Assembly (NCBI GenBank): GCA_015493495.1
Contig: WGDB01000108.1
Span: 1 to 43,394 of the forward strand
Source: Helicobacteraceae bacterium
GTDB taxonomy: Bacteria; Campylobacterota; Campylobacteria; Campylobacterales; Sulfurimonadaceae
Direction: 5' to 3'
Length of the DNA: 43,394 bases
Shown piece by piece: positions 38,584 to 43,394 of the stretch. Position 1 is the stretch's first letter. Each line of letters begins with the position of its first letter. Under the pieces are notes generated by a model. The model did no database searches. It was given only the letters and a program-made list of their open reading frames with translations, and was not told the origin of the DNA. Position numbers and translations under genes: made by a program.

Positions 38584-39111
38584 ATGGACATTTTTATAAC
38601 GATCATCAGCTGGATCGGAGGCTTTGCTCTTTTTGGACTTATTGGACTCATATTTGTATTTTCAAGCACCGCACACAAACATCCTGGTGAATCAAGTGCA
38701 GACATTCTCTCTTTAGCCAGTTTGGCTTTGATATTGTGGCTACTTTGGATGGGTGCCTCTTCCATCTTTCATATGGCAGGATCAGCAGCCGATACCTATC
38801 TCAATGAAGCGCAGCCATCGTCTTCAGTTTCACATCCGGCAGTAACAGGATCGGATAAGGAAATAGTAACGGACACTGCAGATCAAAGCGAGCAGAAAGA
38901 GGACCTTAGAATGCAGATCTTGTTTATATTGGCAACCATACCTTTTCTGATTTGGATTTTTACACCGTCTACCCGACAAGATACAAGGAGAGATCTTATT
39001 AGGAAAAAGGTCATGGCAAGTATGGCTCTTGAAAAAGGTGAATACGGAACAAGACCGTGGAATCCGGACTGGAAGCCTGAAGATGATCACTCCGAAAATG
39101 ATGAAAAGTAA
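38584..39111 (+). CDS. Paralogous membrane protein A of a tandem pair
   Basis: The 175-aa product has helices at about residues 5-28, 42-62 and 108-125, a hydrophilic Ser/Glu-rich middle (about 70-105) and a C-terminal motif GTRPWNPDWKPEDD. It shares its first residues (MD-x-FITIISWI-x-GF) and its end (RPW-x-x-DW) with the next gene, and the first bases of both genes are very similar, so the two arose by tandem duplication. No family is recognised. A hydrophobic N-terminus without a clear cleavage site suggests a membrane anchor. Confidence 0.75.
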   Translation: MDIFITIISWIGGFALFGLIGLIFVFSSTAHKHPGESSADILSLASLALILWLLWMGASSIFHMAGSAADTYLNEAQPSSSVSHPAVTGSDKEIVTDTADQSEQKEDLRMQILFILATIPFLIWIFTPSTRQDTRRDLIRKKVMASMALEKGEYGTRPWNPDWKPEDDHSENDEK

Positions 39112-39223
39112 AGCAAAGCTTTATCTTTCGCAAGCCTGTAAATAATCTATCAACAATGCAGGCCCCACCCCTTTTAACAGCACTCTTTAGATAGACAACA
39201 TCACTTTTTACATAGGACTTTCA

Positions 39224-39715
39224 ATGGACACATTTATAACAATCATCAGCTGGATCGCCGGCTTTTTTCTTAGTTTTATATTACTCCTGAGTTTTCTGTT
39301 TTCATCAGCAGGTGCGGCACAGACTAACAAGTTAGACCTGAAAATCATCTCTTGGATCTCCATACTGTTATTTATATGGCTTGTCTGGAGTGGTGTCTCA
39401 TCTCTGTCTGTTTCAGATGAAGCCAATACTGCTGTAACCACTGCTCAGAGTGCTTCACTGCCAGAGACAAAAACGGCAGTGAGTACTGTTTTAGAAAACA
39501 CAATGGTTATGAATGGTTTATACGTTCTATTTGTTTTTGCAACACTTGCCTTTTTTTCTTGGCTCTTTACACCCTCAATAAGTAAAAAAAGCGGTAAAGA
39601 TATGGTAAGAAAAAAGTTTATAGCAACTGCAATACTTCAAGAAGATGAGGCAGGTCGAAAACCCTGGGATAAGGACTGGAATCCTGACACGACACCCGAA
39701 GGTGATACAAAGTAG
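39224..39715 (+). CDS. Paralogous membrane protein B of a tandem pair
   Basis: The 163-aa product repeats the layout of the previous gene: helices at about 5-28, 41-60 and 100-118, and a C-terminal segment GRKPWDKDWNPDT. Residues outside the two ends are diverged, so the duplication is not recent or has been selected apart. The 112-base gap holds a GCCTG/CAGGC inverted pair (loop about 20). AGGACTTTC lies before the ATG. The function is unknown. Confidence 0.75.
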   Translation: MDTFITIISWIAGFFLSFILLLSFLFSSAGAAQTNKLDLKIISWISILLFIWLVWSGVSSLSVSDEANTAVTTAQSASLPETKTAVSTVLENTMVMNGLYVLFVFATLAFFSWLFTPSISKKSGKDMVRKKFIATAILQEDEAGRKPWDKDWNPDTTPEGDTK

Positions 39716-39827: not shown

Positions 39828-39928
39828 GGACATCTCACCAAAGATACTGGTAGTAAGTGAGACATCCATTTTTACCTTTTAAACCAATCTTCACACAATC
39901 TTGACAAACACCTCATAAACTCTATTTT
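39828..39928 (+). promoter_or_regulatory. Promoter and upstream dyad of the redox cluster
   Basis: TTGACA (39901-39906) and TATTTT (39923-39928) are separated by 16 bases, an unusually complete sigma-70 promoter for this organism. About 33 bases upstream, GGACATCTCAC (39828-39838) faces GTGAGACATCC (39857-39867) across an 18-base spacer, with nine of eleven bases pairing; GACATC is also present as a direct repeat about 32 bases (three helical turns) apart. This fits an activator or repressor site. The cluster encodes its own response regulator, which is one candidate to bind here. Confidence 0.5.
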
Positions 39929-39951: not shown

Positions 39952-41085
39952 ATGAAAAAGATATTAAACATAGCGGTTGCTTCAGCGACTACTTTAATGA
40001 TCATAGGGTGTAGTGACACTTATGATTCTGATGAAAAAACATATACGTCACAAACAGCAAAGAGTATGGGTTCTCTTCAAAGAGAAGTGGGTTATCTAAC
40101 AGATGCTACAGATGAGATGTCACTTTATACTTTTGATAAAGATACACTCTTCCCAACTACAACGAACTGCGATGCAGATTGTCAAAAGATCTGGCCTATC
40201 TTTACAGGTTCAAACACTGAAAACACAGACATAATGGTTTTTGATACAAACACAAGTCATTTAGCATATAGACAACATCCTATGTACTTCTTTAAAAATG
40301 ATACAACTATTGGTGATGTAAATGGAGACAATATAAAAGGTGTTTGGCATCTCATTTATGCTCCTACAGGCACTAACGATACTCAGACCAAGTTTTCTAG
40401 TGCTGCGAACAGTATGACTCAAACATATTTAACGGGGAAAGACGGTATGGCTCTTTATACATTTGACAAGGATGGTGATGATGAAAGTATTTGTTATGGT
40501 ATCCCTGATGCAAAGCCGTTAGGAAGTTGTGAAGCCAGATGGCCAGTGTATTATAGTGCAGATTTGAGTGGGCTCCCTGCAGGAACTACTGCCTCAGACT
40601 TTGCAACTATAGACAGAAATCTGACAAAAGCACTGAAAGATGACAATGGTGATGTGTTAGCAACAAAACAGACAACTTATAAGGGTCAACCTCTTTACTA
40701 CTGGTTTAAAGATGCAAAAGCAGGAGATACGACTGGTGACTGGGTAGGTGGTGTTTGGCACTTAATCGAACTCTCAGCTCAGAAAACTTCAACAATAACA
40801 CCTTCCCCATATACCCAAGAAGCTGCTGCTGCAGGTAAAGCGATCTTTACCGACCCTGCAAAATGTTCAAGCTGTCATGGTGCAGATGGGCAGACTAAAC
40901 CACTTGGAGTTGATAATATAATCGCAAAATATGGTGATGCCGCTCTAATAGAGCAAAAACTAAGAGATATGAGAGACAATGGCAACCCCAATAACCGTAA
41001 CTCAGCTATGGTCAATGTGGCAAGTGGTTTATCAGATACAGCTATCACAAACCTTAGTGCTTTTGTAGCTACTTTAAAAAAGTAA
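39952..41085 (+). CDS. Lipoprotein with two COG4315-like domains fused to cytochrome c
   Basis: I start at MKKILN (39952) with GGAG in front; an ATG four codons upstream is closer to the predicted transcript start and less likely. The lipobox is IIGC (Cys20). Two COG4315 (secreted repeat of unknown function) domains follow: YLTDATDEMSLYTFDKD and YLTGKDGMALYTFDKDGDD, each with a Cys pair near C-x-x-x-W/C-x-x-R-W and a GVWHLI end. A C-terminal cytochrome c domain binds haem via CSSCH (residues 305-309), with Met353 as possible sixth ligand. It sits on the outer side of a membrane and could pass electrons. The fusion is unusual; the substrate is unknown. Confidence 0.82.
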   Translation: MKKILNIAVASATTLMIIGCSDTYDSDEKTYTSQTAKSMGSLQREVGYLTDATDEMSLYTFDKDTLFPTTTNCDADCQKIWPIFTGSNTENTDIMVFDTNTSHLAYRQHPMYFFKNDTTIGDVNGDNIKGVWHLIYAPTGTNDTQTKFSSAANSMTQTYLTGKDGMALYTFDKDGDDESICYGIPDAKPLGSCEARWPVYYSADLSGLPAGTTASDFATIDRNLTKALKDDNGDVLATKQTTYKGQPLYYWFKDAKAGDTTGDWVGGVWHLIELSAQKTSTITPSPYTQEAAAAGKAIFTDPAKCSSCHGADGQTKPLGVDNIIAKYGDAALIEQKLRDMRDNGNPNNRNSAMVNVASGLSDTAITNLSAFVATLKK

Positions 41086-41091
41086 AACAAG

Positions 41092-41841
41092 ATGAAAAAG
41101 CAACTACTTCTTATTGCTGCTATCGCCCTTCTTGATAAAGGGCTGATGGCATTTGAAGCGGGACAATTGAGTTTAGATACACCTAATGTACTTAATAAAA
41201 GTGAAGGTTCTCTCGCAATTCGTCATCGTTTTTTTGGTGAGATGAGTGACTATGATAAATTTCTTGGTACTGATGATGGTGGCAATATGCACTTTATTCT
41301 TAAGTATGCGATTCTTGATAACTTAGTCATTGGAGTTGACCATACAAGAGATGAGAGCGCTTATGGTGCTGGAGTCGAGTATTCACACGATTTCAAGTGG
41401 ATTAAAGCGGGTGCAAGAGTAAATGGTTTTCGATTGAACAAAGGCTTGGATGTGTATGATTACAGCTACCAGGCTATAGTATCACTGCAAACACCAAACT
41501 ACTTTGAACACATAAACTTCACCGCGAATACAGGCTACGATGCTTACTACCAACATTATATAGCAGGTTTTGGAGTAGATGTAAATGCTGAGAACTTTCT
41601 CTCCTTTTTAACATTTACAGAACGTTTGTCTCTACTGGCAGAATACTATCCGCAAGTAGATAAGGTTACGGGAATTTCACAAGAGTATGACGCTTATGCC
41701 TTTGGTATAAAGTACCAGACGTATGGTCACCACTTTGAGATCATGGCTACAAACTCGACAAATATGGACCCTAGAACGATGTCTTTAGGGACTAATAGTG
41801 ACAAGTTGCATCTTGGTTTCAATATAAATAGAAAATTTTAA
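41092..41841 (+). CDS. Outer-membrane beta-barrel protein (DUF5777-like)
   Basis: The 249-aa product has a signal peptide (MKKQLLLIAAIALLDKGLMA) and an alternating beta pattern ending GFNINRKF with a terminal Phe, typical of an outer-membrane barrel. Conserved RHRFFGE near residue 45 resembles the DUF5777 family often found beside periplasmic cytochromes; I rank that as a likeness only. It is six bases after the cytochrome fusion and 12 bases before the P460 gene, so it is within the same operon. It may serve as an outer-membrane partner of the haem lipoprotein. Confidence 0.75.
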   Translation: MKKQLLLIAAIALLDKGLMAFEAGQLSLDTPNVLNKSEGSLAIRHRFFGEMSDYDKFLGTDDGGNMHFILKYAILDNLVIGVDHTRDESAYGAGVEYSHDFKWIKAGARVNGFRLNKGLDVYDYSYQAIVSLQTPNYFEHINFTANTGYDAYYQHYIAGFGVDVNAENFLSFLTFTERLSLLAEYYPQVDKVTGISQEYDAYAFGIKYQTYGHHFEIMATNSTNMDPRTMSLGTNSDKLHLGFNINRKF

Positions 41842-41852
41842 TCGGAGTAAAT

Positions 41853-42377
41853 ATGAAAACATTCATTATCATTAGTTTATTAGCAGCCTCACTCTTTGCG
41901 GATCATATGCATAGGGATTATGATACAAAACTACCTCAACTCAAAATGCCAGATAACAACTTGACATTTCAGATGATAGAGGGCTATAGAGACTACAAGA
42001 TAGTTGCCACACATTTTAGGACAGACAAAAAAGAACTACGTTATATCTTAGCAAATCCGATAGGGTATAATGCTTTAAAGTCAAAAGCAAAGGTGATGCC
42101 AGAGGGCAGTAAAATCGTAAAAATCGGCTGGTCTGTTAAAAAAATGCCCCTCTTTTCAGTCGCACTGGAAGCTGATAAAATTCAAAGAATAGAGTACATG
42201 ATCAAGGACTCTAAAAACTTTGATGCAAATGGAGACAACTGGGGTTATGCGAGGTTTATCAAAAAAGGAGACAAGTTTATGAGTTGGCAAAAGGGAACAC
42301 AAGGTTGTATTAGTTGTCATGCTACAGCAAAAGAGAGTGACTTCCTCTTCACTAGCTTGCAGTCGACTTTTAAATAG
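41853..42377 (+). CDS. Cytochrome P460-like haem protein
   Basis: The 174-aa product has a signal peptide (MKTFIIISLLAASLFA) and a haem c site CISCH at residues 152-156, near the C-terminus, which is the layout of the cytochrome P460/c'-beta family. The N-terminal region carries RDYKIV, YILANPIGYNAL and a WSVKK segment that fit the family fold. Family members oxidise hydroxylamine or bind nitric oxide; no other nitrogen-oxidation gene is here. Its stop directly abuts the response-regulator ATG (42378), so they are coupled. Confidence 0.8.
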   Translation: MKTFIIISLLAASLFADHMHRDYDTKLPQLKMPDNNLTFQMIEGYRDYKIVATHFRTDKKELRYILANPIGYNALKSKAKVMPEGSKIVKIGWSVKKMPLFSVALEADKIQRIEYMIKDSKNFDANGDNWGYARFIKKGDKFMSWQKGTQGCISCHATAKESDFLFTSLQSTFK

Positions 42378-43061
42378 ATGAAACATAAAATATTAATCGT
42401 TGAAGATGAAAGAGACATAGTAAACCTGATAATAAATCGTTTAGACAAAGAGAAGTATGATGTTACAGTAGCATTAAAGGGAGATGAAGCTCTTGCCTTA
42501 GTGAAAACTCAAGAGTTTGACTTAGTCTCGCTTGACATTATGCTCCCTAAGGTTGATGGCTTAACGATTTGTAAGGAACTCCGTCAAGCAAATAAAAAAA
42601 CGCTCATAATAATTGTGAGTGCTTTGGATCTGGACGAGAGTAGAGTTAATGCTTATAGTTTAGGGGCTGATGACTACATATCAAAACCTTTTTCTCCCAA
42701 GATACTCGCTCTAAAAATTGCATCTCTCCTTCAAAGACGATTTGAAATGGCAAATCTAAATATGCAATACAAAAAAATTGTACAACATGACGCCCCTTTG
42801 CAAAGATTTTTTATAAACAGTATACACTTACCCTTGACACCTAGTGAGTATATGATTTTTCAAACACTGTTTAGCAATCCTATAAAAATATTTTCAAAAG
42901 ATGAGTTGTCTCAAATACTCTACAATGAAGACCTTGGAAATATAGATAGAGAGGGAGTAAGAACACATATATACACCTTGCGAAAAAAAATATCGAATTT
43001 TACTGATAAAGAGATTATTAAAACGGTGAGGGGTACAGGTTTTACTCTCTATGAAAACTAA
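42378..43061 (+). CDS. OmpR/PhoB-family response regulator
   Basis: The 227-aa protein has a receiver domain (acidic pocket Glu9-Asp10-Glu11, phospho-acceptor Asp53 in SLDIMLP, Lys near 105 in SKPFSP) and a winged-helix DNA-binding domain (LTPSEYMIFQTL, then REGVRTHIYTLRKKI). It starts directly at the end of the P460 gene. No histidine kinase follows within the window; the next gene is a lipoprotein after a terminator-like stem, so the regulator is an orphan here. It probably controls its own operon through the upstream dyad, which is inference. Confidence 0.9.
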   Translation: MKHKILIVEDERDIVNLIINRLDKEKYDVTVALKGDEALALVKTQEFDLVSLDIMLPKVDGLTICKELRQANKKTLIIIVSALDLDESRVNAYSLGADDYISKPFSPKILALKIASLLQRRFEMANLNMQYKKIVQHDAPLQRFFINSIHLPLTPSEYMIFQTLFSNPIKIFSKDELSQILYNEDLGNIDREGVRTHIYTLRKKISNFTDKEIIKTVRGTGFTLYEN

Positions 43062-43190
43062 GGTAGAAGTAAGTCTTCAATATAAAGTATTTTCGTTAGT
43101 ACCGCTTATGTGTTAATCAGATGAAAATATATAAGAAAAATTTCATCTACTGAAAAACTCAAACTATTTGGACAAGTAATAAATGAAAGA

Positions 43191-43262: not shown

Positions 43263-43394
43263 TTGAAACTTCAAAAATATATACTAAGCTTAATCTTATC
43301 AATATTTTTTATTAATTGTAGTACATCAACACAGCCAAAGGAGCCCAAAAAAATTACAAAAGGCGACTATACATATTTTACAGAATATATGAAT
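43263..43394 (+). CDS. Lipoprotein, 5' end only; possibly a serine hydrolase
   Basis: The frame starts at a TTG (43263) seven bases after AAGGA and runs off the window. It opens with a lipoprotein signal: hydrophobic stretch then lipobox FINC (Cys19), followed by STSTQPKEPKKITKGDYTYF. That early KGDY segment recalls beta-lactamase-fold serine hydrolases of this phylum, but the part with the catalytic SxxK is not included, so the family is only a guess. Its promoter lies near the TATTATAA stretch described above. Confidence 0.55.
   Translation, partial: MKLQKYILSLILSIFFINCSTSTQPKEPKKITKGDYTYFTEYMN

Follow-up and report, generated by a model that had tools for sequence, protein, structure and literature searches.

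Four plus-strand genes lying head to tail (Table 1) probably form a periplasmic module for the detoxification of hydroxylamine and nitric oxide (NO), placed under an OmpR-type switch of its own. This reading draws on gene content, the residues of a catalytic pocket, gene linkage, a repeated operator and the absence of a kinase at the locus. The window analysed here, 43,394 nt in length, corresponds to the whole of contig C108, one of 173 in a 2.57-Mb genome whose relatives are Campylobacterota, mostly metagenome-assembled. The gaps between the four ORFs are 6, 11 and 0 bp. Pfam domain assignments for P0001 to P0004 are all above the curated cut-offs and, together with the ORF positions, confirm that the four genes described in the initial annotation are real and correctly placed. 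They also form a unit of conserved order, as had been proposed: the arrangement lipoprotein, barrel, P460, regulator, kinase is found at five other Campylobacterota loci (L061, with one small ORF between, L062, L067, L068 and L071, the last being that of G183), and in part at a sixth (L069), where the barrel is present and the DNA upstream encodes a cytochrome c domain.

Table 1. Features of the four-gene locus and its flanks, with positions in the window.
Feature	Position	Strand	Basis
P0001, lipoprotein with two tandem COG4315/Lipoprotein_15 units and a C-terminal monohaem cytochrome c domain	39952-41085	+	PF03640, PF00034, lipobox IIGC
P0002, DUF5777 outer-membrane beta-barrel, 12 predicted strands, C-terminal Phe	41092-41841	+	PF19089; AlphaFold2 pLDDT 74
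P0003, periplasmic cytochrome P460, crosslink lysine K90, haem motif CISCH	41853-42377	+	PF16694; alignment with McP460 6hiu
P0004, OmpR/PhoB-type response regulator, phospho-acceptor D53, K103 kept	42378-43061	+	PF00072 + PF00486; conserved residues
Operator, 11-bp direct repeats TCTTCACACAA TCTTGACAAAC; predicted P0004 binding site	39888-39909	+	11-bp spacing in relatives; sole exact genome match
Weaker third repeat unit ACCTCATAAAC	after TCTTGACAAAC, to 39920	+	
Predicted -10 element TAAACT	39916-39921	+	TAWAMT, constant distance to repeats in relatives
21-codon ORF MKTKVEVSLQYKVFSLVPLMC, possible remnant of kinase start	43052-43117	+	protein-level match, p 0.007-0.015

By every sequence feature tested, P0003 is a cytochrome P460. 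It matches Cytochrome_P460 (PF16694, Pfam) with 101 bits against a cut-off of 27 (E 7.1e-29) and has a signal-peptide-like N-terminus. The nearest solved structures are those of Methylococcus capsulatus cytochrome P460 (McP460; 9hrk, E 5.5e-17, and 6hiu, E 7.3e-17), and the match to cytochrome c'-beta is weaker (E 2.7e-7). In the alignment with 6hiu, K90 corresponds to K78 of McP460, E114 to D102, and R56, R63 and R134 to R43, R50 and R121. None of these five columns varies among 13 aligned sequences, and the haem motif C152-C155-H156 is likewise invariant. The haem-crosslinking lysine is K90, with no sign there of the Phe that replaces it in c'-beta, and both the distal arginines (R56, R63, R134) and a proton-relay carboxylate (E114, a Glu as in NeP460) are present. 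The roles of these pocket residues, including that of the crosslink lysine, are as described for McP460 and for NeP460, the cytochrome P460 of Nitrosomonas europaea (PMC12352625, PMC6427953). P0003 has its fold family, CxxCH haem, crosslink lysine and distal arginines in common with McP460 (6hiu/9hrk) and NeP460 but, unlike them, shares an operon with an OmpR-type regulator, a lipoprotein and a barrel in a denitrifying member of the Campylobacterota. The retention of all McP460 pocket residues supports the earlier suggestion that the set may handle NO or hydroxylamine.

The DNA upstream of the operon (TCTTCACACAA TCTTGACAAAC ACCTCATAAAC) had been described as an unusually complete promoter, and the string concerned does exist (TTGACA-16-TATTTT at 39901-39928, 10 of 12 matches). 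In relatives, TTGACA varies (TTGATA, TTCACA, TCCACA, TCCATA) while an 11-bp spacing is constant, so a sigma-70 promoter was rejected as the main reading; the relatives point instead to an operator followed by the -10 element TAAACT. The words TTCA, TTGA and TCCA were counted upstream of regulator-linked operons at spacings of 5-24: in 31 Campylobacterota regions 1.4 pairs spaced by 11 bp were expected and 28 were counted, in 8 Aquificota regions the corresponding figures were 0.3 and 17, and no other spacing was comparable except the double spacing of 21-22 bp in Aquificota. A TAWAMT hexamer follows the repeats at a constant distance, often as TATACT or TATAAT in relatives. Repeats of 11 bp before a -10 element are the layout of a PhoB-type operator (Pho box), and the supposed -35 TTGACA is better read as the second unit of such an operator.

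Upstream of the P460 operon lies the sole exact match to the operator pattern in this genome, making it most likely that P0004 controls this operon through the predicted site. Matches with two mismatches were as frequent as in the reversed control and, two intergenic ones excepted, lay mostly within genes; a wide regulon in this genome was rejected on these grounds. A related pattern, TCTTSAYNNAATCTTSANA, gave 30 matches against 1 for the reversed control across 200 family genomes. Among the distinct genes starting behind it, 20 of 23 encode CxxCH proteins, compared with 3 of 83 background ORFs; leaving out the P460 clusters, the proportion is 15 of 18. The gene of a different OmpR-type regulator precedes several of these sites, which suggests that the operator type is common to a group of cytochrome-controlling regulators. 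Sites of the type TCTTSAYNN-AATCTTSANA (L152-L181 in the 200 family genomes; L131, C8:45006, and L149, C160:41448, in the genome studied here) are found mostly before c-type cytochrome lipoproteins with one to many haems, often directly behind another OmpR-type regulator, and possibly represent a family-wide cytochrome regulon.

P0004 consists of Response_reg and Trans_reg_C domains (Pfam) and retains D10, D53, S81 and K103, so the regulator is not visibly decayed. It scores far below the cut-offs of all named NCBIfam equivalogs, the best being PhoB with 155 of 296 bits. Like PhoB/OmpR-type two-component systems it joins a receiver to a winged helix and has an 11-bp direct-repeat operator before the -10 element; the HisKA/HATPase kinase of such systems is matched in relatives and missing in this genome. 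In the nearest relatives the kinase begins at or just past the regulator stop (611 aa in G183, 608 aa in G026), and a kinase lies directly behind the regulator at all 26 full-flank Campylobacterota loci that carry the regulator. The initial annotation was right that the window holds no kinase, the contig continuing past P0004 without one, but its orphan regulator appears to be so only secondarily: the ancestral kinase was most likely lost here, as judged from one metagenome-like assembly in which the contig, the whole window, stops 333 bp past the regulator.

The possibility that the kinase had moved elsewhere in the genome was rejected, as the sole find was the catalytic core of a paralogue on contig C70, with 42% over the core. 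For a decayed kinase behind the regulator, the search at the DNA level gave nothing above shuffles. The 21-codon ORF MKTKVEVSLQYKVFSLVPLMC resembles a kinase start (VSLQYKV against LSIKYKI), with shuffles reaching the score in 0.7 and 1.5% of cases, and this match, seen at the protein level alone, is only suggestive of a weak remnant. At the place of the kinase in relatives, the window carries the start of a lipoprotein ORF (MKLQKYILSLILSIFFINCS..., 43264-43394), cut by the contig end. A comparison of the contig tail with relatives, made for a common repeat or element, gave no long match. The C70 paralogue belongs to a second P460-regulator-kinase module of the same genome (L039, G000:C70:4079-5303, minus strand; P460 61%, regulator 45%, kinase 338 aa), which has a diverged operator (TCTTTAGACAA TCTCCACAACT) and lies about 15 kb from NapA on the same contig. 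P0004 and the C70 regulator resemble each other in the first receiver helix, and the C70 kinase could supply phosphate to P0004.

The kinases of relatives are of two kinds. Short kinases have two spans and a loop of about 10 residues, with PIGxxM in 33 of 33 aligned, and no periplasmic domain, while long kinases have a large periplasmic region, with HAMP, HisKA and HATPase above the Pfam cut-off. In the nearest relatives the kinase is a long one and brings a periplasmic region of its own, which in L055 is dCache-like at a score below the Pfam cut-off. Since the input domains differ, the input domain appears to have been exchanged while regulator, operator and P460 stayed, and this variation counts against the detoxification reading. 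L055 (G026:C295:1-1328) contains the closest relative of the regulator (82%); the readable P460 before it is a C-terminal part only, preceded by stop codons, reflecting either a broken gene or an assembly error, and the regulator and long kinase there are intact.

P460 neighbourhoods were scanned in one genome per species (GTDB 220), and a P460 ORF was present at 65 of the 70 loci obtained. Campylobacterota contributed 44 P460 loci, 36 with full flanks: regulator and histidine kinase stand beside P460 at 26 of these, a regulator without a kinase at none, and 10 have no regulator nearby, which also counts against a dedicated detoxification module. At most loci, P460, regulator and kinase occur without lipoprotein and barrel. 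In Aquificota, 8 of 9 P460 loci have a divergent regulator, six with the kinase as well (two contigs end first). The P460-linked regulators group by phylum, with one clade for Campylobacterota (100/99) and one for Aquificota (99/98); a common linked ancestor of the two was neither shown nor rejected (p-AU 0.374). In Bacteroidota, Lipoprotein_15 is near P460 at 6 of 9 loci, and a membrane protein with a LytTR DNA-binding domain is likewise near it at 6 of 9. The N-terminal region of that protein resembles Cache at a score that does not reach the Pfam cut-off, and by its domains it is a one-component transmembrane regulator. At L092, L101, L103, L106, L107 and L120 it lies beside P460, usually together with Lipoprotein_15.

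The other two genes encode envelope proteins. Pfam recognises Lipoprotein_15 in four stretches of P0001 (E 5.5e-29) plus Cytochrom_C (2.5e-8), and DUF5777 in P0002 (E 2.4e-20). The AlphaFold2 model of P0002 has 12 strands, and its sole Foldseek matches were generic porin-like barrels. For P0001, the model was poor (pLDDT 66) and matches by Foldseek and profile search were confined to the cytochrome c part, so a fold assignment for Lipoprotein_15 was dropped; a PHROGs search with P0001 gave no match, and literature on COG4315/PF03640 and DUF5777 yielded nothing useful. P0001 shares tandem Lipoprotein_15 repeats with the SCO0930-family/COG4315 lipoproteins but differs from them in scoring 92 bits against NF040526, below the curated cut-off of 275, and in its fused cytochrome c domain. 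Of 200 family genomes, 5 contain the lipoprotein and 7 the barrel. The barrel and a small cytochrome c adjoin a kinase-regulator-kinase-regulator set with no P460 in G013 and G153, and a Bacteroidota locus (L099) unites Lipoprotein_15, cytochrome c, barrel and P460, also with YceI. Judged by this distribution, lipoprotein and barrel are a separable module that was joined to P460 more than once, and their separability makes a role of this pair in hydroxylamine or NO turnover less certain. At L182, L183 and L184 (G013, G153, G056), a DUF5777 barrel, a small cytochrome c lipoprotein and/or Lipoprotein_15 adjoin the repeated set, which comprises a kinase of about 485 aa, a regulator of 220, a soluble kinase of about 220 and a regulator, plus a 340-aa porin-like protein.

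The genome encodes NapA and a candidate for NirS, the cd1-type nitrite reductase, making NO in the periplasm plausible. The module would most likely sense reactive nitrogen, or a correlate of it, and then induce P460. From the conserved operator we infer that P0004, once phosphorylated, switches on the four genes by binding the repeats at 39888-39909. P0003, given its complete catalytic pocket, would oxidise hydroxylamine and also react with NO in the periplasm. Its electrons would presumably be taken up by P0001, through the monohaem cytochrome c domain, and delivered to the respiratory chain; the outer-membrane part would consist of the 12-strand barrel together with the Lipoprotein_15 units. 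The ancestral operon would have ended in a histidine kinase, since lost in this genome, leaving P0004 to be phosphorylated by another donor, for which the C70 paralogue is the prime candidate, or to be active unphosphorylated.

The initial annotation had the regulator reporting the state of the cluster. The evidence favours a regulator that controls the operon, and the reporting idea is retained in a reading, itself unlikely, in which P460 is the sensor: its haem would bind NO or hydroxylamine, and the loaded protein would signal to the short kinase via the periplasmic loop, giving a three-component system. The lack of a periplasmic domain in the short kinases and their uniform PIGxxM loop are consistent with this, as is the position of the P460 gene, which in Campylobacterota and Aquificota directly precedes the regulator gene or diverges from it. 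However, the crosslink lysine, the proton-relay carboxylate and all the other catalytic residues are kept, and a pure sensor would not need them; P460 is also found without regulator and kinase, the long kinases of the nearest relatives have a periplasmic region of their own, and the operon in this genome has no kinase. It is also doubtful that P460 serves both as enzyme and as a periplasmic haem co-sensor that docks on the PIGxxM loop, the kinase driving the operon via the 11-bp operator; lineages would then have swapped the transducer (short kinase, long periplasmic-domain kinase or LytTR membrane factor) and kept the haem protein.

There is a slim chance that two unrelated modules merely lie side by side, the lipoprotein and barrel serving another envelope function (e.g., metal or haem handling) and P460 with its regulator and kinase alone dealing with reactive nitrogen. 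The P460-free loci of G013 and G153 and the many P460 loci without lipoprotein and barrel fit such a division, but Lipoprotein_15 stands beside P460 in Bacteroidota too, under a different regulator, L099 unites all the components, and the four genes here lie under one operator. An outer-membrane electron conduit, the other function first suggested, is very improbable. As in MtrCAB-type conduits, one operon holds a barrel and a lipoprotein cytochrome, here with a second cytochrome, and in relatives this type of operator also stands ahead of multihaem cytochrome lipoproteins. Known conduits consist of multihaem proteins inside much larger barrels, whereas none of the proteins here has more than one CxxCH, found in each of two, and the predicted 12-strand barrel is too narrow to sheath a cytochrome, which makes an Mtr-type conduit unlikely. 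The haem of P460 is moreover reactive towards substrate and no wire.

Work on cytochrome P460 has centred on ammonia- and methane-oxidising bacteria, where it is of interest as a source of N2O and NO. If the detoxification reading is true, hydroxylamine and NO turnover would extend to sulfur-oxidising, denitrifying Campylobacterota, where it is rarely considered, and the operator and the kinase loop would be direct handles for finding the signal. In three phyla P460 recurs next to dedicated signalling proteins (regulator and histidine kinase in Campylobacterota, a divergent two-component system in Aquificota, a LytTR membrane factor with Lipoprotein_15 in Bacteroidota), which suggests a coupling between the sensing of reactive nitrogen and its removal. 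Among the titles and abstracts covered by a non-exhaustive literature search, no report linked P460 to a dedicated regulator. Directly upstream of the operon (38584-39715), the window encodes two tandem paralogous small membrane proteins of 175 and 163 aa that carry the motif MDxFITIISWIxGF.
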